Below are positions 3-30,716 of a stretch of DNA of 64,000 nucleotides, piece after piece. The notes beneath the pieces are model-generated. The model ran no database searches, was not told the DNA's origin, and saw only the letters and a list, made by a program, of their open reading frames with translations. Position 1 is the first letter of the stretch. Every line of letters begins with the position of its first letter. Both the position numbers and the translations under genes were made by a program. Origin of the DNA: a bacterium. Lineage in GTDB: Bacteria > Myxococcota_A > Bradymonadia > UBA7976 > UBA1532. The DNA is taken from positions 1-64,000 of the forward strand of contig JAUHYW010000043.1 of assembly GCA_030426085.1 (NCBI GenBank), in the 5' to 3' direction.

Positions 3-3000
3 CCCGCGGCGCCCGAGCCCCCCCCGCCCGAGCCGCCCCCGCCCCCGAGCCCGGCGCCCGAGGCCCCGGCCGACGTCGGGCTGCCGTTCTCTGTGGACGA
101 CGAAGACCCGCTGGCCGACTTCCTCTCCGACCCCGAGCTGGAGGCCGTCGCCGAGGCCATCGCCGCCCGCGAGCCGCCCCCCGGCGCCGCGCCCGAAGGC
201 GAACCGCTGCTCGACGACATGGGCCGCCCGCCCAATACGCTGCCCAGCCGGCCCCGCTCGATGCCCCGGGCGCCCGCGCCCGCCGGCTCGGTCTTCGAGG
301 CGGTCATCCCCCGCACCGACGGCGCCCCGCCCGACGGGGGCACCCCGGCCGCCACCCGACCGGCGCGCCCCGAGGCGTTCGAGGACGGCCCGCCGCCCGC
401 GGCGGGGGACGCATCGCCGCCGCAGGTCGCCGGCCGCAGCCCCGAGCGCCCCGGCCCGACGGTGAACCTGCGGGGCCCCGAGGCCGAGGCCGAGCGCCGC
501 AAGCGCCCCACCGCCGACCTCGGGCCGCGGCCGGCCGACATCTCGGTCGACGAGCTCATCGAAGAGGCCCGCTCGCTGGGCCAGACGACCGCCCGGGCGG
601 CGATCGCCGACCGCAGCACCGTCGACCTGCGGGGCGAGCTGGACGGCGCGCCCCCCGACGACGAGGCCGCGCGGGGCCGCAAGACGGTCAACCTGCGCCG
701 CGCGCCCGGGGCGCCGCCGCCGAGCGGCGAGGTGCTCGAGCTCGACGACGCCGACGTGCTCGAGGTGGCCGACGAGCCCGAGACGGTCGACGTGAGCGAC
801 GCCGACGTGGTCGAGGTGCTCGACGTCGAGGCCGCCGGGCCGGCCCCGTTCGATCGCCGCGCGCTCGAAGAGGCCGAGACGGGCGTCTTCACCACCCTCT
901 CGCCCCACGCCGCGGCCGAGGCGCCCCAGGCGCTGCCCGATCCGCCGCTCGACGAGGCCCCGTCGGCGCCGCCGCCCGACGACGCGACCGAGCCGACCGC
1001 CGCGCCCGAGGCCAGCCCGCCGGTGTCCGCCCCCGACGCGGCGCTGTCCGACGCGGCGCTGTCCGACGCGGCGCTGTCCGACGAGGCGCGCCGGGCCCTC
1101 GGAGAAGCCGAGACCGGCGTCTTCAGCCTGCTCGATCCGGAAGACATCGCCGGCTCACCGCTGCGCATCCCGTCGCCCCCGGTGGCCGCGGCCGACGCGC
1201 CGGTGCACCCCGAGGCCGAGACCGTCGAGCTGCCCGAGGCGTCCGGCGTGCCCGATCCGACGGTGCCCTCGACGTGGCCCGCGCTGCCCGATCGCCCCGC
1301 GACGCCGGCCCTGCCCGAGGTGGCGCAGAGCGCGGCGCCCGACGCGGCCGATCCCGAGCCGGGGGGCGGGGGCTCGACGCCTCGAGCGGAGGATCCGGAC
1401 GACGCGAACGAAGGCTCGACGGCGGATCCGGCAGTGCCCGGGGATGCGGAGGCCGACTCGACGGCGGATCCGGCGGTCCCGGAGCACCCGGACGGGGGCG
1501 CGAGCCCTCCCGTGGCCGAGCCCGAGCCGCGGGAGGGGGCGTCGACGCCTCGACCCGCGGCGCGGGAGCAGGTGTCGAGCGCTCCAGCGGCGGTGGTCGA
1601 GCGCCCGGACGCGCCGCGCGCGGATCGAGTCGCGGATCCCGAGGCCCCGGACGACGACTCGACGGCTCGCGAAGTGGATCCCGAGGGCGGGGACGACGAC
1701 TCGGCGGCTCGCGAAGTGGATCCCGAGGGCGGGGACGACGACTCGACGGCCCACGAAGCAGATTCCGAGGCCCCGGACGACGACTCGGCGGCTCGCGAAG
1801 TGGATCCCGACGAGGCCCCGGACGACGACTCGACGGCTCGCGAAGCAGATCCCGCGGCCCCGGACGACGACTCGGCGGCTCGCGAAGCGGATCCCGAGGC
1901 CCCGGACGACGACTCGACGGCTCGCGAAGCCGATCCCGAGGTCGGGGACGGCGCCGCAACTTCTCGCGATGCCGATCCCGAGGGCGGGGAGGGCACTGCA
2001 AACTCTCGCGAAGCCGATCCCGAGGTCGGGGACGGCGCCGCAACTTCTCGCGATGCAGATCCCGAGGTCGGGGACGGCGCCGCAACATCTCGCGAAGCCG
2101 ATCCCGAGGTCGGGGACGACGACTCGACGCCTCGCGAAGCCGATCCCGAGGCCCCGGAAGACGACTCGCCGGCGCGCGCCGACGCGCCCGAGGGTGGCCC
2201 GGACGCCCCAGCCCAGCCCGAGCCCGATGCCGCGCCCGTCGCCGCCGGGCCGGCCTCGACCCCGCCGGCCGGACCCCCGCCGGCCTCGACCCCGCCGGCC
2301 GCCCGCGCGCCGCGCAACGTCACCCCCTCCGAGCCGGCCATCGCGCTCGACGACCTGCTCGACGACTCGATCGACGACGGCGACGACGACCTCTCCGACC
2401 TGCGGCTGAGCCCGCCCCCCGCGCCGCAGCCGAGCCCGACGTTCGAAGCCATCGACGCCCTCGACCTCACCGGCGAGGACGACTCGGGCATCGACCTCGA
2501 CCTCGATCTCGGCCTCGACCTCGGCCTCGACGCGCCCGACCTCGAGCCCCCGCTGTCCGACGGCCCCGTCGCGGCCGGCCCGCCCGAGCCGGCCGATCCG
2601 GCCGTCGCCTCGCCGGCGCCCGACGCGGCCAAGCTCACCGAGGCCGTCGCCGCGCTGATGAGCGCCGATCAGGCCACCGTGGCCACCGCTGAAGGGGCGC
2701 TGGTCGCCGGCGGCGCCGCCGCGCTCGAGCCGCTGTTCGCCGTCTTCCCCGGCCCGCTGCTCGTCGACCGCTACGCCACCGGCGACACCGTGCCCGTCGA
2801 TCGCCACGGGCCGGTCCTGCGCACCATCTGCCGCATCGGCCCGCCGGCCGGCCCCTACCTCGCGCAGCGCTGCGAGCACCTCGCCCCCGATGTGCGGTAC
2901 TACGCCGTCTTCGCGTTCTCCGCCGTGCGCGACCCGGCCTCGGTCGCCTCCATCGCGCCGGCGCTGACCGACAAGGATCCCACTGTGCGCGCGGTCGCCT

Positions 3001-3488
3001 GCCGGGTGGCCGACACCTACCGCGGCGACGAGATCTTCGGGGTGCTCGTCACCCACCTCGTCAGCATCGTCGAGAAGGGCCGCCTCGCCGACCGCCGCCT
3101 GGCCGCCGAGGCGCTCGGCGTGCTGCACACCGCCGACGGCGCCCGCCCGCTCATCGCGATGCTCAACGCGCCCCAGCCGCCGCTGCGGGACGCGGCCCAC
3201 AAGGCGCTCGTCGAGATCGCCCGCCAGGACTTCGGCGTCGACGTCTGGCGCTGGCGCACCTTCTTCGAACGCAGCGCCGCCCGGCCCCGCGTCGAGTGGC
3301 TGCTCGACGGGCTGCTCAGCGACCAGCGCAACATCCGGGTCGGCGCGTTCAACGAGCTGCGCCGGCTCACCCGCCAGAACTACGGCTACACCCCCGACGC
3401 GCCGCCCACCGCTCGCCGGGCCGCCGCCGAGCGGTGGGTCGGCTGGTGGCATCAGGCCGGCCGGGCCCGCTTCGGGCACTACCGGTAG
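3..3488 (+). CDS. acidic low-complexity HEAT-repeat protein (5' partial)
   Basis: The first in-frame Met-like codon is a GTG at 93, but the frame is open from base 3 and encodes a Pro/Glu-rich run leading into LPFSVDDEDP, so the gene almost certainly begins left of the window. The middle is a long disordered Asp/Glu/Pro/Ala region, including short TVNLR/TVDLR motifs (roughly 450-700) and a 14-residue repeat block at 1632-2180. After about 2600 the composition becomes normal and forms HEAT-like helical repeats (for example DVRYYAVFAFSAVRDP and PTVRAVACRVAD), ending in a Trp-rich tail. HEAT repeats usually mediate protein-protein contacts; the function here is unknown. No signal peptide can be judged because the N-terminus is missing. 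Confidence 0.85.
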   Translation, partial: PAAPEPPPPEPPPPPSPAPEAPADVGLPFSVDDEDPLADFLSDPELEAVAEAIAAREPPPGAAPEGEPLLDDMGRPPNTLPSRPRSMPRAPAPAGSVFEAVIPRTDGAPPDGGTPAATRPARPEAFEDGPPPAAGDASPPQVAGRSPERPGPTVNLRGPEAEAERRKRPTADLGPRPADISVDELIEEARSLGQTTARAAIADRSTVDLRGELDGAPPDDEAARGRKTVNLRRAPGAPPPSGEVLELDDADVLEVADEPETVDVSDADVVEVLDVEAAGPAPFDRRALEEAETGVFTTLSPHAAAEAPQALPDPPLDEAPSAPPPDDATEPTAAPEASPPVSAPDAALSDAALSDAALSDEARRALGEAETGVFSLLDPEDIAGSPLRIPSPPVAAADAPVHPEAETVELPEASGVPDPTVPSTWPALPDRPATPALPEVAQSAAPDAADPEPGGGGSTPRAEDPDDANEGSTADPAVPGDAEADSTADPAVPEHPDGGASPPVAEPEPREGASTPRPAAREQVSSAPAAVVERPDAPRADRVADPEAPDDDSTAREVDPEGGDDDSAAREVDPEGGDDDSTAHEADSEAPDDDSAAREVDPDEAPDDDSTAREADPAAPDDDSAAREADPEAPDDDSTAREADPEVGDGAATSRDADPEGGEGTANSREADPEVGDGAATSRDADPEVGDGAATSREADPEVGDDDSTPREADPEAPEDDSPARADAPEGGPDAPAQPEPDAAPVAAGPASTPPAGPPPASTPPAARAPRNVTPSEPAIALDDLLDDSIDDGDDDLSDLRLSPPPAPQPSPTFEAIDALDLTGEDDSGIDLDLDLGLDLGLDAPDLEPPLSDGPVAAGPPEPADPAVASPAPDAAKLTEAVAALMSADQATVATAEGALVAGGAAALEPLFAVFPGPLLVDRYATGDTVPVDRHGPVLRTICRIGPPAGPYLAQRCEHLAPDVRYYAVFAFSAVRDPASVASIAPALTDKDPTVRAVACRVADTYRGDEIFGVLVTHLVSIVEKGRLADRRLAAEALGVLHTADGARPLIAMLNAPQPPLRDAAHKALVEIARQDFGVDVWRWRTFFERSAARPRVEWLLDGLLSDQRNIRVGAFNELRRLTRQNYGYTPDAPPTARRAAAERWVGWWHQAGRARFGHYR
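1632..2180 (+). repeat. 13 copies of a 42-bp coding repeat
   Basis: The translated unit is (A/V)DPE-x-x-DDDS-x-A-R-E, 14 residues. About 13 units follow one another; one is 15 residues long (VDPDEAP form). Early units carry DDDS, later ones DGAATSR or EGTANSR, so variants are clustered as expected from tandem duplication. The stretch is highly acidic and probably disordered. Confidence 0.85.
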
Positions 3489-17089: not shown

Positions 17090-19648
17090 TCAGTCAAAGC
17101 ATGCATCGCGGGCCTCGTCGGGGTCTACCTGGTCTTCGGGGATGCCGACGACGCCGTCCCACAGCGGCGGCGGCGCCCCGATGGGCGAGAGGGGATCCCC
17201 GTTGGGGCCCATGCGCTCGAAGCCGAAGTCCATGAAGACGTGCTCGTGGGTGATGACCCACTGCCCGTGCTGCACCACCTGCACGAAGTCGTCATTCTGT
17301 TCGGCCCCGATCCAGATCGGGAACCCCCACCCGTGCAGGTCCCGGAAGTGCCCGAAGAACTCGCGGAAGCCCTCGGCGTCGACCCGGCTGCTCAGCCGGT
17401 CGATGCCGGCCATCTGCTCCCAGATCAGCGCCGACTGGATGCTCATCCACCGCGGCGGGCAGACGGGCTCCTGCAAGACCTTCATCGCCGAGCGGGTGGC
17501 CCCGGTGTCGAAGTCGGTCCACACCGGGTTGACGAAGGGGTCGTCCTGCACGTCGAAGCCCGGCGAGCAGCGGGTGTAGATGCCCCACCGCCGCTCGCCG
17601 GGCGCGCAGCGGCCCAGGCCGGGCGGGGCCTGCACCCCGGGCTGCACCGGGCAACCCTCGGCGAGGTAGTGCTGCACGAGGCCGCCCTCGCAGCCCTGCA
17701 CCGCGTCGGGTGGGGACTCCCACAGCGGCGCGCTGACGCGGGACTGCATCTGGGACCACGGCTCTTCGGGTCGGGCCCGGCGGCGGCGGACCACCTCGAC
17801 CTCGGGCATGATGCCGGCGTCGTCGGGGAACTCGGCGAAGCGGCACTCATCGAGCACCGCCTGCATAGCGGCGGTCGGTCGGAGCAGTCGATAGAGCAGC
17901 GCCGGGCGGCCGATGCGCCGCGACTCGAGGAGCCTGCGGTAGACGTCGCGGATGCTCCCCAGGTGGGGCAGCGCATCGCGCGTCAGTCGGGCAAGGGTGA
18001 AGCGGTAGTCCCGGCACTGGGCGACCAGCCAGCGGTGGTATCGACCGCGGTACTGACGGCTGACGGTGCGGCTGGCCTTGTACTCCTCCGAGAGCGGGGC
18101 GATGACGCCGGCGACACCGCGACAATGACAGTCGTGGCGCCGCTTGCGCTCGAATCGGTATTCGCGGATCTCGCCGCTGCGCAGCCGGCGCCGCATTGTC
18201 CCGATGAGCGGCTGGGGGTTGTCGAAGTCGTGGGTCGTGCGGGGGATCACGAACTCCCGGCCGCACGCGTCGTCGGGGTCCTCTCCGATCTCGGCGAACG
18301 CCAGCGCGTGCGCGTTGCTGTGGCAGTACGTATTGCCCGCCCACTGCTCGTACGCCCGCCCGAGCACGATGCCGAGCGTCTTGCCGGTGGCGTCCTCCAA
18401 CTCGCCCACCAACAGCCCGACCACCTCCTGCACCCAATGCCAGTGGTCTCGCCGGGCGGGCGGCTGGTCATCGCCCTGCTCGGCCGGCGGCTGATCGGGC
18501 GGGTCGTTGATCACCTGGGGCCCGTCGCCGTAGCTCGCCGCCGCCTCGGCCAGCAGCCGGATGGGCAGGTACAGCAGCGCCCAGGGCACGGTCTGCGGCG
18601 CCTCGACCCGCACCGCGTCGGTCCAGACGAGCTGATCCATCGACGGCGGCATGTCGGGGTGCACCTCCTCCGGCGGCAGCGGCAGGTCGCAGGCGTCGCC
18701 CTCGCCGTTGCTCGGATCATCGGTCTCCTCCTGCCCTTCGTTGGGCTCGAGCGGGCAGTTGTCCTCCCCGTCGTCGTGCCCGTCCTCGTCGGTGTCGGGG
18801 TTCAGCGGATCGGTCTCGATCTCCTCTTCTTCGGCGTCGGTCAGCCCGTCGTCGTCATCGTCGTCATCGCAGATGTCGCCTTGCCCGTCGGCGTCGGTGT
18901 CCCGCTGATCGGGGTCGGGATCCAGCGGGCACACATCGCACGCGTCGCCCAGCCCGTCGGCGTCGCTGTCGAGCTGGTCGGGGTCGAAGTCCCACCGGCA
19001 GAGGTCGCACGCGTCGCCCACGTCGTCGCCGTCGGCGTCGAGCTGCGACGGATCGGGCACGCCGCGGCAGACGTCGCACACGTCGCCGACCCCGTCGCCG
19101 TCGGTGTCCTGCTGGATGTCGTTCGGCCGCGACCGGCAGTTGTCGCAGACGTCGCCCCACCGATCGCCGTCGATGTTGGTCTGGAACGGGTCGAAGTCCG
19201 CCGGGCACCCGTCGCAGGCGTCGCCGACGCCGTCGCCGTCGGCGTCCCGCTGGTCGGCGTTGGGCTGAGCGAGGCAGTTGTCGCAGCGGATCTGGACCCC
19301 GTCGGCGTCGGGGTCCCGCTGGGGTTCGGTCCAGTTGTTGGCCTCGGCCGCGGCGCAGCGGCGCTGGGTGCAGGCCAGGATCTGCATCAACGCCGCCGCC
19401 CGCTCGACGCCGTTCCACCGGCGGCGAAAGCCGTTGTGCGGCACCCACATCCGGTCGTCTATGTCCCAGATCTCGTAGAAGCCGTCGTAGCGCCGGCTGG
19501 GGTTGATCCAGAAGGGCAGGCCGTCGGCGCAGTCGATGAGCCAGCCGGGCAGGGTCTCGTCGTGGTGCGGGTCGTAGCGCGCGGGCAGCGCCGGGCGGCC
19601 GGGGGGCGGCTCGCACCACATTTCGAAGAGCAGCGAGCCTTCGAGCAC
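17090..19648 (-). CDS. large protein with thrombospondin type 3 calcium repeats
   Basis: 852 residues from GTG 19648. Residues about 115-310 contain at least seven repeats of the form CDxCPxxxxPDQxDxDxDGxGDxCD, the Ca2+-binding thrombospondin type 3 pattern, ending with a DDDDDDD stretch and an EF-hand-like segment. The following ~540 residues are unique, with several His/Cys/Trp-rich stretches (HDCHCRGVAG) and no recognised enzyme domain. Such repeats occur in exported proteins, yet there is no signal peptide at this start. The frame is open for about 55 more codons upstream without a good start, so the N-terminus may be mis-called or frameshifted from the preceding lipoprotein gene. Confidence 0.75.
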   Translation of the reverse strand: MLEGSLLFEMWCEPPPGRPALPARYDPHHDETLPGWLIDCADGLPFWINPSRRYDGFYEIWDIDDRMWVPHNGFRRRWNGVERAAALMQILACTQRRCAAAEANNWTEPQRDPDADGVQIRCDNCLAQPNADQRDADGDGVGDACDGCPADFDPFQTNIDGDRWGDVCDNCRSRPNDIQQDTDGDGVGDVCDVCRGVPDPSQLDADGDDVGDACDLCRWDFDPDQLDSDADGLGDACDVCPLDPDPDQRDTDADGQGDICDDDDDDDGLTDAEEEEIETDPLNPDTDEDGHDDGEDNCPLEPNEGQEETDDPSNGEGDACDLPLPPEEVHPDMPPSMDQLVWTDAVRVEAPQTVPWALLYLPIRLLAEAAASYGDGPQVINDPPDQPPAEQGDDQPPARRDHWHWVQEVVGLLVGELEDATGKTLGIVLGRAYEQWAGNTYCHSNAHALAFAEIGEDPDDACGREFVIPRTTHDFDNPQPLIGTMRRRLRSGEIREYRFERKRRHDCHCRGVAGVIAPLSEEYKASRTVSRQYRGRYHRWLVAQCRDYRFTLARLTRDALPHLGSIRDVYRRLLESRRIGRPALLYRLLRPTAAMQAVLDECRFAEFPDDAGIMPEVEVVRRRRARPEEPWSQMQSRVSAPLWESPPDAVQGCEGGLVQHYLAEGCPVQPGVQAPPGLGRCAPGERRWGIYTRCSPGFDVQDDPFVNPVWTDFDTGATRSAMKVLQEPVCPPRWMSIQSALIWEQMAGIDRLSSRVDAEGFREFFGHFRDLHGWGFPIWIGAEQNDDFVQVVQHGQWVITHEHVFMDFGFERMGPNGDPLSPIGAPPPLWDGVVGIPEDQVDPDEARDACFD

Positions 19649-19662
19649 GATGCCAGGCTCCG

Positions 19663-20220
19663 TCAGGAAATGACTCGGGCTGCGGCCGCGATCTCGACCC
19701 CCATTCGCCGCTTTCCTCCTCGCCTGCTCCTCGCCGCACCTCTGGTGCGACTGCGTCGCCGGCTGCGGGGGCGCTGGCGACTGGGGGCCGACCTCACGCC
19801 CTCGCTGTCCGAGTCATTTCCTTCCGAAGCCTTGTTCGGCGGCGGGGGCACGGCGACGGCCCGGGAGAGGCCGACGACGGACGCGCAGCTCTGTGCGGGG
19901 CATCCGAACCCGCGGGCGGTGGTGAGCCAGATGCCACCGGGGGCGTGGATGGCCCGGGTCCAGTTGCCGCCGGGCTGGCCGAGCACGAGGCCCCGGCGGC
20001 AGTGGCCCTCTTCGACCCGCTGGCAGTGCAGGATGCTCAGCTCGGTCGGGCCCTCGCTGGTGGCTTCGGTGCGCAGCGGGGCGTTGGCTTCGGTCCAGCA
20101 CGGCGCGACGCCGGCGTCGAGGGGGCTGGGTTCATGCACGCACAGCTCGGGGTGGTCGCTGCAACACCCGGCGACGGTGAAGAGCGCGAGGGCTGTGAGC
20201 TCGAACCGTCGGATGTGCAT
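19663..20220 (-). CDS. lipoprotein with Arg-rich C-terminus
   Basis: 185 residues. ATG 20220 starts MHIRRFELTALALFTVAGC, a lipoprotein signal with lipobox AGC. The mature region up to about residue 130 is ordinary (CWTEANAPLRTEATSEGPTE, NWTRAIHAPGGIWLTTARGFGC). The last ~50 residues are extremely Arg/Ser-rich with codon use unlike the rest, and they coincide with a segment bounded by a 14-bp inverted repeat. Either the tail is dispensable or the reading frame is broken here. It lies directly upstream of the thrombospondin-repeat gene. Confidence 0.6.
   Translation of the reverse strand: MHIRRFELTALALFTVAGCCSDHPELCVHEPSPLDAGVAPCWTEANAPLRTEATSEGPTELSILHCQRVEEGHCRRGLVLGQPGGNWTRAIHAPGGIWLTTARGFGCPAQSCASVVGLSRAVAVPPPPNKASEGNDSDSEGVRSAPSRQRPRSRRRSRTRGAARSRRGGKRRMGVEIAAAARVIS
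19665..19822. repeat. perfect 14-bp inverted repeat around a 130-bp segment
   Basis: AGGAAATGACTCGG at 19665-19678 and its exact complement at 19809-19822. The enclosed 130 bp encodes the Arg-rich tail of the lipoprotein. Turning the segment round keeps that frame open to the same stop codon and gives a Pro/Ser/Ala-rich tail instead. No recombinase gene is nearby. Confidence 0.6.
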
Positions 20221-20364
20221 CGCGTCGCCTCCCGTGGATACCGCCCCCCGTAGTACGGAGGGTGGTGCCATCCCGAGGCTGAATGCAATCTCCGAGTATG
20301 GGTGCCGGTGGGCGGTGTGCCGGGGGCCGTATGACTGACAGGCACCCGGTCGGGCCGGGCCCGA

Positions 20365-20591: not shown

Positions 20592-21240
20592 TGCGAGACC
20601 CCCTCCCGACTCGATCGATCGACCGCCAGACACCTGCCGGACCCGGCCGTCGTTCATCCCTTCGAAATTCGCAGGCCTCCGCACCCTCGTCAGCGAGCGG
20701 TCGTTCGAATCAGAGAAGGGTCCCGGACCCGACCGTGATCCGATCTTTCGAATTTCGAAGGGTCCCGAACCCGGCTTCGATTCGTTCGTTCGAACTCGGG
20801 CAGGGTCTCGGACCCTCTCGTGATTCGGTCGTTCGACTTTCGAAGGGTCCCGGACCCGGCTTCGATTCGTCCATTCGAATTTCGGCGGGGTCTGGGACCC
20901 GGCTTCGATGCGTTCATTCGAATTTCGACGGGGTCTGGGACCCGGCTTCGACGCGTTCGTTCGAATTTCGACGGGGTCTGGGACCCGGCTTCGATGCGTT
21001 CATTCGAATTTCGACGGGGTCTGGGACCCTCCTCGATTCGTTCATTCGAATATCGGCGGGGTCTTCCGGCTCTCTGGCGGTCGTTCAGTCGGATTCTGGC
21101 CGGGTCGCGCACCCCTTCGGCGGTCGTTCGATCGAATTCCGACGGGGTCTCCCGGCTTCTTGACGGTCGTTCGGTCGAGTCACGCCGGGGCCTCGCGCCT
21201 CCTCGCGGCCATCCGGTCGAGTCCGGGCGGGGGCGTCGAG
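20592..21240. repeat. tandem array of about 15 units with a 42-43 bp period
   Basis: Each unit has a G/C hairpin GGGTC-TGG-GACCC, then GGCTTCGATGCG, then a palindromic core ATTCGAAT and TTCGACG. Unit starts (GGG) are at 20718, 20760, 20803, 20845, 20888, 20931, 20974, 21017, 21059, 21102, 21145, 21188 and 21231; weaker copies precede at about 20634 and 20676. Central units (20888-21016) are nearly identical; both ends decay. The period is not a multiple of three and every frame shifts from unit to unit, so it is not protein coding. The array ends about 80 bp before the start of the lipoprotein gene at 21320. Confidence 0.9.
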
Positions 21241-21319
21241 CGGCACATGTGGGAGCCACCCTTTGACCCGCACTGCCGACTCGTCGACAATCGGGCCACC
21301 CGACTCGCGGAGCCCGTCC

Positions 21320-23197
21320 ATGCCGTCACGCTCGTCCTTGCGTTCGCCCGCCCTGCTGTTGTTCGTCGGCCTCGCCGCCATGGCCTGCTCCGACGCGGTG
21401 CCCGTCGGCGACGGCGTCGACGGCGGGGTCCCGCTCGACTTCGACATCGTGCCCGTCGACGACGCCGGCAAGACCGAGGACATGCCCCGGGGCAGCGGCG
21501 ACATGGGCCCCCCGCTCGCCGACGAGGAGCGCCAGCTCGCGCTGTTCGACGACCCCGACCAGTTCGCGCTGCTCGGCACGACCCTCGAGGTGCAGTTCAT
21601 CTACAGCCGCACCCGGGGCGGCGGCATGCCCGAGCCGATCGAGGCGGGCCGGGTCAGCTTCACCCTGTACGACGAGAACAACCTCGAGAGCCCCGGCGGC
21701 GTCGCCAACAGCCGGCTGCGCAGCGGCAGCGGCCAGACCGACGCCCAGGGCCTCGTCACCGCCGAGGTGGCCATCGGCGACATCGAGACGTTCTTCTACA
21801 TCGAGGCCGACGCCCCCGGCGCCGAGCCGGTGCGCTACGGGGTCGCGGTCGGCCGGGACGGGGTCGGCGCCCTCAACGTGCGGGTGGTCTACGAGCCGGC
21901 GACGAGCCGCTACACCTTCCGCGAGCTGCCCACCGCCGAGGTCTTCCTCTTCGACGACCAGAACTGCGGTCAGGTGGGCATGGAGCCGACCCAGATCTTC
22001 GGGGCCTACATCTCGGTGCCCCGCGATCCCTTCGACTCGGTCGACAATCAGGTCAACATCCGCGACCTGGAGGACGGCAGCCGCTTCACCGTGGCCGCGG
22101 TGGCCTACAACACCCTCGACAACACCGTCGCCTTCGGCTGCCAGGACGCCGTCGAGATCATCGGCGGCCGCACCACCGGCGTCGATCTGGTCATCGACGA
22201 CCTGCCGCTCGAGTTCAAGGGCCGCTTCCGGGTCGTGCACCGCTTCGACCTGACCGAGATGCTGCGCAGCAGCGACAACGACACCCTCAACACGGTGGCC
22301 GACGTGCTCGACATCCTGCGCATCATCGGCAGCGACGAGGGCGAGCGGGGGCGCATGCTCGTCGAGCTGCTGTGCGGGGTGACCGGCATCGACGAGAACC
22401 TGTGCGACCTCATCGAGCCCATCGCCGGGCGGCTCGTCGATCAGGTCATCGACAACTTCCTCGTCGAGCAGGTGCCCGAGGTCTTCGCCGTGCTGCGGGG
22501 CATCAGCGACGTGCTCACGATCCTGACCGACATGACCATCGTCGGCGAGATCGAGTTCATCGACAGCTTCCCCGACGACGAGGGCATGCTCTACGACAAC
22601 GAGAGCCGGTGGCAGAAGTTCCGCTTCCGCTGGCGCAACGGCTGCCCCCAGGGGGCCGACTGCATCCAGGAGTTCACCATCGGCGAGCTGCACAACGACG
22701 GCGGCGCCGACCGCCCGCGGCCGATCTTCGGCCAGTTCGACGCCGATCTGGTGGGCAGCGAGCTGATCATCCCGGCCCACGTCTACACCGTGCGCTACGC
22801 GACCATCCTGCTGGGGCTGGCCGAGACGTGGGTCATCCCGGCCATCCTGGGGCAGCCGGGCCCGATCGGCATCGACGAGGTGCTCGCCGAGATCCTGCCC
22901 TGTGAAGACATCGACGATGTCATCGGCGAGGGCAACTGCCAGATCATCCTCGTCGAAGGCATCGCCGAGGTCCTCTACGAGCAGCTCGGCCGGCTCGAGT
23001 TCGCCGCCGACGCCTTCACCATCGAGGGCCGGGTGACCCCGGTGGACGACGACGGCGATCTGGTCATCGACCGGCTCGTCGACGGCACCTGGGAGGGCCT
23101 GATCGGTATGGACCTGCGCTTCCCGGGCTGCTTCACCGGCTGCCGGGGGCTCGACTGCGAGCCCGACAACTGCATCGTGCCCGCCCTGGCGCCCTGA
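21320..23197 (+). CDS. exported lipoprotein of unknown function
   Basis: 625 residues. ATG 21320 has GGAG upstream and opens a lipoprotein signal (ALLLFVGLAAMAC, Cys at the lipobox). An Asp-rich linker follows. Residues about 90-220 look like beta-sandwich material (LEVQFIYSRTRGGG, VSFTLYDENN, GQTDAQGLVTAEVAIG), like Ig-type bacterial domains. The second half has helices and Cys pairs (GCPQGADC, FPGCFTGCRGLDC). No family recognised. It starts at the edge of the tandem repeat array, which occupies its promoter region. Confidence 0.75.
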   Translation: MPSRSSLRSPALLLFVGLAAMACSDAVPVGDGVDGGVPLDFDIVPVDDAGKTEDMPRGSGDMGPPLADEERQLALFDDPDQFALLGTTLEVQFIYSRTRGGGMPEPIEAGRVSFTLYDENNLESPGGVANSRLRSGSGQTDAQGLVTAEVAIGDIETFFYIEADAPGAEPVRYGVAVGRDGVGALNVRVVYEPATSRYTFRELPTAEVFLFDDQNCGQVGMEPTQIFGAYISVPRDPFDSVDNQVNIRDLEDGSRFTVAAVAYNTLDNTVAFGCQDAVEIIGGRTTGVDLVIDDLPLEFKGRFRVVHRFDLTEMLRSSDNDTLNTVADVLDILRIIGSDEGERGRMLVELLCGVTGIDENLCDLIEPIAGRLVDQVIDNFLVEQVPEVFAVLRGISDVLTILTDMTIVGEIEFIDSFPDDEGMLYDNESRWQKFRFRWRNGCPQGADCIQEFTIGELHNDGGADRPRPIFGQFDADLVGSELIIPAHVYTVRYATILLGLAETWVIPAILGQPGPIGIDEVLAEILPCEDIDDVIGEGNCQIILVEGIAEVLYEQLGRLEFAADAFTIEGRVTPVDDDGDLVIDRLVDGTWEGLIGMDLRFPGCFTGCRGLDCEPDNCIVPALAP

Positions 23198-28562: not shown

Positions 28563-30716
28563 TCACTCGCAGTAGCGGCCCGCCGGGTTCGACGACGCGC
28601 AGGTGTTGAGCGAGACGTCGCCGCCCCGGTCGACCGTGGCGGTCTCGATGTGGATGTGCGGCCCCGACGAGCAGCCCGAGTTGCCGCTGAACGCCAGGAG
28701 CTGGCCCTGCTCGACGTGCACCCCGTTCCGGATGCCGGGGGCCAGATCTTCGATGTGCAGGTACCAGACGAGCAGGTCGCGGCCCGGGTCGTCGGGGTCG
28801 CCGCAGTCGGCCCGCAGCTTGACGTAGTTGAAGGCGTTCCAGCAGGCCGGGGTGCAGCCGTTGTCGTAGCAGTTGGGCAGGCCCAGGCGGCTGGCGATGA
28901 CCGTGCCCGCCATGCCGGCGTGGATCGGGGTGCCCACCCGGGTGCCATAGTCGATGCCATAGTGCCGCCCGCCCAGCCCGCAGGCCGAGAAGCTCTGGGT
29001 CAGCGCGCCCGGCGGCCGATCGAGGCAGCATTCGCCGTCCCCCCGGCGGCATTGATCGGGCACCCCGGGCGGGTTCTGGCGGCAGCCGTCGGGGCACGGC
29101 GTCTCGTCGGCCACCTCGCCCCCGCGGCACTCATAGAGCGTATCGGCCTCGCCCGCGCCGAGCCCGCTGCCGCAGTAGGCGCCGTCCCCCGCGCCGGCCG
29201 CGTCGCACGCGTCGCCCGCGGGGGGTGCCATGCGGCAGGCGTCGGGGGTGCCCGGCGGCATCTGCTGGCACCCGTCGGGGCACGGCCGGGCGGCGGCGAC
29301 CATGCGACCGCGGCAGTCGTACAGCGTATCGGGGTCGCCCGCGCCGAGCGAGCGGCCGCAGTAGGCGCCGTCCCCCGCGTCGGCCGCCGCGCAGGGGTCC
29401 TGCACCGCCCGGCAGGCGTCGGGCACGCCCGGTGGCATCGACTGGCACCCGGCGGGGCAAGGCATCGCGCTGGCGGTGGTGCGGTTCTGGCAGTCGTACA
29501 GCGTGTCGTCGTCGCCGGCGCCCAGCGAGCGCCCGCAATACAGCCCGTTGCCCGCGTTGGCCGCCGCGCAGGGGTCGCCGTCCGGGCGGCAGGCGTCGGC
29601 GACGCCGGGTGGCATCTGCTGGCATCCGCCGGGGCAGGGGGCCGCGCTGCGGGTGACGCCGCCCCGGCAGTCGTAGAGCGTGTCGGCGTCGCCCGCGCCC
29701 AGCGTCCGGCCGCAGTAGGGCCCGTCCCCCGCGTCGGCGCCGCGGCACGGATCCTCGGGCTGCGGCGGCTGGGCTGCGCGGCAGGCGTCGGGGGTGCCCG
29801 GCGGCATCTGCACGCAGCCATCGTCACACCGCCGGGCGGCCGCGGTGGCCCCGCCGGCGCAGTCGTAGAGCGTGTCGGGGTCGCCCGCGCCCAGCGTCGA
29901 GCCGCAGTACAGCCCGTTGCCCGCGTCGGCCGCGGCGCAGGGGTCGCCGCCCATGCGGCAGGCGTCGGGGGTGCCCGGCGGCATGGCTTCGCAGCCGTCG
30001 ATGCATGGGCTCGCGCTCACCGTCTGGCCGCCCCGGCACACATACAGCGCGTCGGCGTCGCCCCGGCCCAGCGCGCGGCCGCAGTAGGCCCCGTCTCCGG
30101 CGTCGGCCGCGGCGCACGGATCGTCGTCCCGCACGCAGCCGTCGGGGGTGCCCGGCGGCGCGACCCGGCAGCCGCGGTCGCAGGCCGTCACCTCGGCGGT
30201 GGCCCCGCCCACGCAGCGATACAGCCGGCCGGCCTCGCCCCCGGTCAGCGTGCCCCCGCACCACGCTCCGTCGCCCGGCGCGCTGGCGCACGGATCGGCC
30301 GCCGGCTGCACGCAGGCGCCGTCCGCGCAGCCGGCGGGGCACGGCTCGACCGCCGCGACTCGGGCGCCGGCGCAGACATAGGCCGAGTTGTGGTCGGTGC
30401 CCGGCAGCTCGGCCCCGCAATAGGCCCCGTCGGCGGCGTCGACGCAGGGGTCGTCGGGCGGCGGGGCCAGATCGGGCTCGATGCCCAGATCGGCGATGGG
30501 CCCTCGATCGGGCCGCGGGGGTTCGACCCGCTGGTCGGCCTCGATGTCAGCGTCCGATGGAGGCTCGCCGTCCAGCGGCCCGCCGTCGGGCGCAGGCCCC
30601 CGATCGAGGGGCGGCAGCGCGTCGGCCGGGGACATGCCATCGGGCGCCGGTGATGGGTCGGAGCTGCAGGCCGGGGCGGCCGCGGCGAGGAGGGCGAGCA
30701 GGAGCGTGACGCGCAT
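28563..30716 (-). CDS. M23 peptidase lipoprotein with eight six-Cys repeats
   Basis: 717 residues. Lipoprotein signal (LLALLAAAAPAC), Asp/Pro linker, then eight modules of about 55-60 residues, each with six Cys (DPCAAADAGDG-YCG...LYDC...PC--GC...DAC) between about residues 90 and 560. The C-terminus is an M23 (LytM) peptidase: HYGIDYGTRVGTP and GPHIHIE carry the zinc ligands H-x3-D and HxH. It could cut peptidoglycan cross-links outside the cell. A Zn-free form is possible if the first Gly-His differs, but both motifs look intact. The Cys modules probably bind the target or form disulfide stalks. Confidence 0.85.
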   Translation of the reverse strand: MRVTLLLALLAAAAPACSSDPSPAPDGMSPADALPPLDRGPAPDGGPLDGEPPSDADIEADQRVEPPRPDRGPIADLGIEPDLAPPPDDPCVDAADGAYCGAELPGTDHNSAYVCAGARVAAVEPCPAGCADGACVQPAADPCASAPGDGAWCGGTLTGGEAGRLYRCVGGATAEVTACDRGCRVAPPGTPDGCVRDDDPCAAADAGDGAYCGRALGRGDADALYVCRGGQTVSASPCIDGCEAMPPGTPDACRMGGDPCAAADAGNGLYCGSTLGAGDPDTLYDCAGGATAAARRCDDGCVQMPPGTPDACRAAQPPQPEDPCRGADAGDGPYCGRTLGAGDADTLYDCRGGVTRSAAPCPGGCQQMPPGVADACRPDGDPCAAANAGNGLYCGRSLGAGDDDTLYDCQNRTTASAMPCPAGCQSMPPGVPDACRAVQDPCAAADAGDGAYCGRSLGAGDPDTLYDCRGRMVAAARPCPDGCQQMPPGTPDACRMAPPAGDACDAAGAGDGAYCGSGLGAGEADTLYECRGGEVADETPCPDGCRQNPPGVPDQCRRGDGECCLDRPPGALTQSFSACGLGGRHYGIDYGTRVGTPIHAGMAGTVIASRLGLPNCYDNGCTPACWNAFNYVKLRADCGDPDDPGRDLLVWYLHIEDLAPGIRNGVHVEQGQLLAFSGNSGCSSGPHIHIETATVDRGGDVSLNTCASSNPAGRYCE

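Follow-up and report, generated by a model that had tools for sequence, protein, structure and literature searches.

Across the tandem arrays of Myxococcota, unit length is conserved and sequence is not. The arrays share a constant unit length, are mostly unrelated in sequence, lie between genes and are dispersed, and their positions are not conserved between the two congeners compared. One of them occupies positions 20592–21240 of the window (the whole stretch of 64,000 nucleotides that was analysed), which is contig C109 of G000, a G+C-rich draft genome of 10.1 Mb in 178 contigs. The recurring unit of 41–44 bp suggests that these bacteria have some means of measuring or reading DNA at this interval. 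Our tentative reading, to which we lean without holding it to be probable, is that the window array is one copy of an intergenic, helically phased satellite class common in Myxococcota, and that an architectural assembly that binds DNA may read such arrays in register.

The window array, which is assigned to no strand, is non-coding and consists of about 15 units of 42–43 bp (mean 42.71), as found by TRF, self-matching and unit splitting. Its self-match at a lag of 43 is 0.60, against 0.29 ± 0.035 in other 649-bp pieces of the window, and with a G+C content of 64% it lies below the window as a whole (73.5%). TRF returned a period of 43 (20747–21064, 7.5 copies) together with a period of 85. 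Cutting at TTCGAA-like sites gave 15 units, from 20618 to 21216 and beyond; ten of the 14 steps between them are 43 bp and four are 42 bp. The initial annotation, made from the letters alone, had described such an array of about 15 non-coding units, and this description stands; both of the step lengths that it gave occur, but not in the regular alternation that it claimed. It was also right about a near-identical centre and decaying edges. The homogenised core (20874–21044) holds four near-identical units, TTCGAATTTCG(A/G)CGGGGTCTGGGACCCGGCTTCGATGCGTTCA, with identities of 0.86–0.88 to the consensus, and is made of repeats of TTCGAATTTCGACGGGGTCTGGGACCCGGCTTCGATGCGTTCA, whereas identity falls to 0.53–0.56 at the left edge (20592–20703) and 0.51–0.67 at the right edge (21088–21240); these parts, too, have no assigned strand.

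Exact palindromes are found in the core units: TTCGAA in nine units, GGGTC-N3-GACCC in seven and ATTCGAAT in four. The two dyads jointly beat 97.5% of shuffled units (p = 0.025). The two palindromes that had been proposed for every unit are real in the core, but they are lost at the edges. Long open reading frames span the array because the DNA is G+C-rich, and in these the frame shifts from unit to unit; as the initial annotation had stated, the array cannot be translated as repeats. Genes were called with a simple codon-usage script. The array lacks the layout of conserved repeats and unique spacers that marks a CRISPR array, since whole units repeat within it and the segments between TTCGAA sites are near-identical between neighbours. 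A non-coding tandem with a homogenised centre and decayed edges has the make-up of a minisatellite or satellite, and this one, being intergenic and phased at 41–44 bp, also belongs to the sequence-independent class described here. It had nothing above threshold in Rfam, where only sub-threshold miRNA matches were seen. The array has a 78%-identical relative on contig C12 of the same genome, and BLASTN gave no match to it in 57 relatives, in plasmids or in phages. Many other arrays of G000 resemble the window array in design only.

Evidence on unit length that is free of any choice of motif comes from seven Myxococcota genomes, of which 79 stretches of 20 kb each (about 1.6 Mb) were taken regardless of the presence of repeats. 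The genomes G356, G340, G047, G020 and G200, which are represented by single large contigs, gave the same result as the drafts G000 and G001. The fundamental period of the non-coding arrays is mostly 41–44 bp, with the rest near half (21–22) or double (83–87) that length, and most of these arrays lack TTCGAA. When only periods of 25–70 bp that are not divisible by three are counted, a measure that does not depend on gene calls, 10 of 14 arrays fall at 41–44 bp where 1.4 are expected (binomial p = 5e-8). The corresponding figure for 1.2 Mb of other phyla is two of nine, both in one Thiomargarita genome.

The spacing of identical 10-mers, a count independent of any repeat finder, gives the same picture. 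Non-coding DNA of Myxococcota holds 324 pairs per lag at 41–44 and 180 at 83–88, against 6.3 at 34–40 and 20 at 45–51. Coding DNA of the same genomes has no peak at 41–44, with 64, 64, 97 and 84 pairs per lag at 41–44, 83–88, 34–40 and 45–51, respectively; nor does one appear in six genomes from other phyla, whose non-coding DNA gives 1.0 pair per lag at 41–44. The initial annotation had noted that the period is close to four helical turns. This holds for the window array, and because arrays of unrelated sequence throughout Myxococcota have that period too, the remark proved to be the most important part of the annotation. Helical phase does not by itself account for the length of the period, however, because the 10-mer spacings show no clear enrichment of three- and five-turn periods. 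Arrays of the unbiased sample also fold better than their shuffles (mean hairpin z-score −2.7, against −0.24 in other intergenic DNA), so palindromes are favoured, though they are neither universal nor at a fixed distance.

Pairs of TTCGAA 31–61 bp apart concentrate at 42–44 bp in G000 and in its congener G001, and these arrays have one TTCGAA-like site per 42–44 bp, with the DNA between sites mostly unrelated from array to array. Of 379 Myxococcota genomes, 21 contain three TTCGAA spaced at 42–44 bp, with 133 forward matches against 8 for a reversed-pattern control. Such arrays lie between genes in Polyangium, a Myxococcaceae MAG and Deltaproteobacteria Ga0077539, and differ in their units. 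TTCGAA was rejected as a universal motif, being present in only one of six unbiased arrays of the genus, and a fixed distance from dyad to dyad was rejected since dyad geometry varies between arrays. When GTDB as a whole was scanned for three TTCGAA in phase, most of the matches listed had a spacing of 42 bp throughout. Those inspected in Planctomycetota and Bacteroidota are apparently coding repeats, and TTCGAA phasing alone is therefore not diagnostic outside Myxococcota.

In the mechanism that we favour, arrays would grow and homogenise by slippage, unequal recombination or gene conversion, while their unit would be held near four helical turns (a ruler of about 42.6 bp) because whatever reads them does so in register and from one face of the DNA. 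The putative reader, a cellular protein of the architectural DNA-binding type or a cooperative assembly, would tolerate many sequences, including TTCGAA-type and other dyads, and act on the shape and spacing of the DNA. The arrays might then shape the chromosome locally, by stiffening or bridging it or by insulating genes from one another, rather than control a neighbouring gene. Units of the class often hold palindromes, and array centres are homogenised with decayed edges. Against an architectural reading, the motifs are not common to all arrays, the geometry of the dyads is inconstant, and 42 is also the commonest length among periods divisible by three (11 arrays, compared with 3 of 39 bp and 4 of 45 bp, coding and non-coding arrays being mixed in this count).

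This excess of 42 bp leaves room for a mutational ruler, and makes it nearly as likely as an architectural assembly. Here unit length would be set when repeats are duplicated or expanded, either by a complex of replication, repair or recombination with a measuring length of about 42.6 bp or by a nucleoprotein wrap over which the strands re-align, and the arrays themselves would be functionless. Unrelated sequences between arrays, unconserved positions, decaying edges and dispersed close copies would all be in keeping with it, as would a 42-bp coding array at window 1635–2178. The latter is a DPEAPDDDSTAREA-like tandem repeat of 14 codons inside an open reading frame of 1131 aa (93–3488), and perhaps equals the non-coding ruler in length by chance. 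Against it, the coding 10-mer spacings have no peak at 41–44, although a unit of 42 bp would preserve the frame, and palindromes are enriched in the arrays. It is for these two reasons that a DNA-reading assembly is preferred as the ruler. We also know of no enzyme that yields a step of about 42.6 bp, which counts against the mutational alternative.

REP and BIME elements of enterobacteria are intergenic, palindromic, mosaic and tandemly amplified, and the Myxococcota arrays are like them in all four respects. An origin as REP/BIME-like elements, that is, mosaics of short palindromes that a transposase mobilises and that have multiplied into tandem copies, would also account for the occurrence of arrays between genes of every relative orientation and for copies 96–98% identical at unrelated loci. 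Sharp-edged copies of this kind are shared by C38 and C97 (96% over 730 bp) and by C5 and C95 (97.5% over 964 bp), in each case between unlike flanks. The RAYT/Y1 transposase family PF01797, however, is absent from G000 and G001, although it is present in the relatives G007, G008, G013–G015 and G017, and RAYT-driven REP was rejected on this ground. No palindrome is common to all arrays and no palindromic unit sequence is conserved across loci; REP elements keep their sequence, whereas the arrays keep their spacing. A REP/BIME-like origin is accordingly improbable.

In the 730-bp pair of copies (L061 5438–6167 and L062 122–851) and the 964-bp pair (L063 6984–7947 and L064 6727–7689), no transposase gene was recognised, and some of these blocks hold oppositely oriented arrays.

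The nearest functional design is that of the F plasmid, where sopC (parS_F) consists of non-coding 43-bp tandem direct repeats with one G/C palindrome per unit (PMC6238139); by analogy, it works as the proposed assembly would. Measured on NC_002483, sopC is 43 bp × 10.7. The window array, with units of 42.7 bp, is likewise a non-coding tandem repeat of the 43-bp type with a G/C palindrome, although GGGTC-N3-GACCC and TTCGAA are confined to its core units. If it were a centromere of the partition type, as the initial annotation had considered, the palindrome of every 43-bp unit would be bound by a ParB-like protein, in the way that SopB binds sopC, and the shared period and the one strong G/C dyad per unit would fit. 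But sopC is the only array of its kind, stands next to sopAB and has a single conserved palindrome, while in the present case one chromosome carries many arrays of mostly unrelated units. No partition genes lie beside the window array on C109, as the ParB hits in G000 are one clear gene on contig C5 and one sub-threshold match on C58. Neither flank has an array in G001, and the match of GTCTGGGACC to sopC is at chance level (E 0.16–0.6). A role in partition is therefore very unlikely.

Control of a neighbouring gene fares no better. The array lies in a divergent intergenic region. On its right, a lipoprotein gene (21320–23197, forward strand) encodes the lipobox FVGLAAMAC, in agreement with the initial annotation, and has no Pfam match. 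A promoter-like site, TTGACC-17-GACAAT (21263–21291), stands between array and gene within a block at 21256–21319, forward strand. On the left, the reverse-strand gene at 17090–19648 encodes a thrombospondin type 3 repeat protein. The upstream block of the reverse-strand gene (20207–20359, reverse strand) has an 87%-identical duplicate at C12 118–270 (blastn), beside the paralogous array there. An operator array for the lipoprotein gene or its divergent neighbour would be well sited immediately upstream of the promoter-like site, and would be expected to be conserved with its gene. In G001, the lipoprotein orthologue is 80% identical and lies on contig C49, and the orthologue of the left-hand gene lies on C42; no array is present beside either of them. 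Homology to G001 begins 16 bp past the end of the array, where window 21256–21481 aligns at 76%, and the promoter block is conserved there in the absence of the window array. The other arrays of the two genomes occur between convergent and codirectional genes as well as between divergent ones. Regulation of the lipoprotein gene, which the initial annotation had suggested, is thus not supported, and an operator array has little chance of being the right explanation. As the two flanking orthologues are on separate contigs of G001, the array stands at a point where gene order differs between the two genomes; this comparison within the genus is between two drafts. The thrombospondin type 3 repeat protein itself has about 150 matches in each of G000 and G001, whose family has a large expansion of calcium-binding repeat proteins.

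An ordinary minisatellite whose period is a coincidence is scarcely credible either: the satellite-like decay and homogenisation agree with it, but periods cluster in unrelated arrays across several Myxococcota families, and the 'plain minisatellite' of the initial annotation is too weak a description because chance lengths would not gather at 41–44 bp. Bacterial minisatellites and VNTR loci of the MIRU type are intergenic tandem arrays with homogenised centres, and the usual view takes them for families of related sequence or for products of slippage with an arbitrary unit length; in the Myxococcota arrays, unit length is fixed and sequence is free. Thiomargarita sp. SulCav offers a comparison outside the phylum. 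Its arrays at L112, L135, L161 and L193 repeat a perfect 32-bp palindrome, AGATTTGACAACTTTTCGAAAGTTGTCAAATCT, with a period of 42–45 or 59 bp. They resemble the Myxococcota arrays in having 42–45-bp units and TTCGAA at the centre of the palindrome, but differ in having one conserved 32-bp palindrome with variable spacers, and so represent a sequence family.

No description of such arrays was found in the part of the literature that was searched. The recurrence of one unit length in mostly unrelated arrays across a phylum points to a ruler not known so far, which could be an assembly that binds DNA or a machinery that duplicates it. Each would be something new for the biology of social and predatory bacteria with large genomes, and both can be tested directly. 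A bolder extension, which we regard as speculative and rather unlikely, is that Myxococcota possess a phylum-wide chromosome-structuring system of dispersed satellite arrays, built or read in four-turn steps by an architectural protein assembly, in which unit length is constrained and sequence is free. If true, this system would be a bacterial counterpart of the satellites of constrained repeat length in eukaryotic chromatin.

Some further repeats were observed. The G001 arrays L076, L077, L079 and L080 are mosaics, in which the modules GTACGGGCATGTAGGCAAGA and GATGAGGACTTGTCC are shuffled between arrays as single units. At 18141–18209 of contig C68 in G000, TTCGAA flanks a GACAGGTGCCAGGCAC palindrome repeated at 31–32 bp, which is a different short palindromic repeat. 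Finally, tandem repeats with a period of 177 lie at window 29081–30303 and are probably coding.
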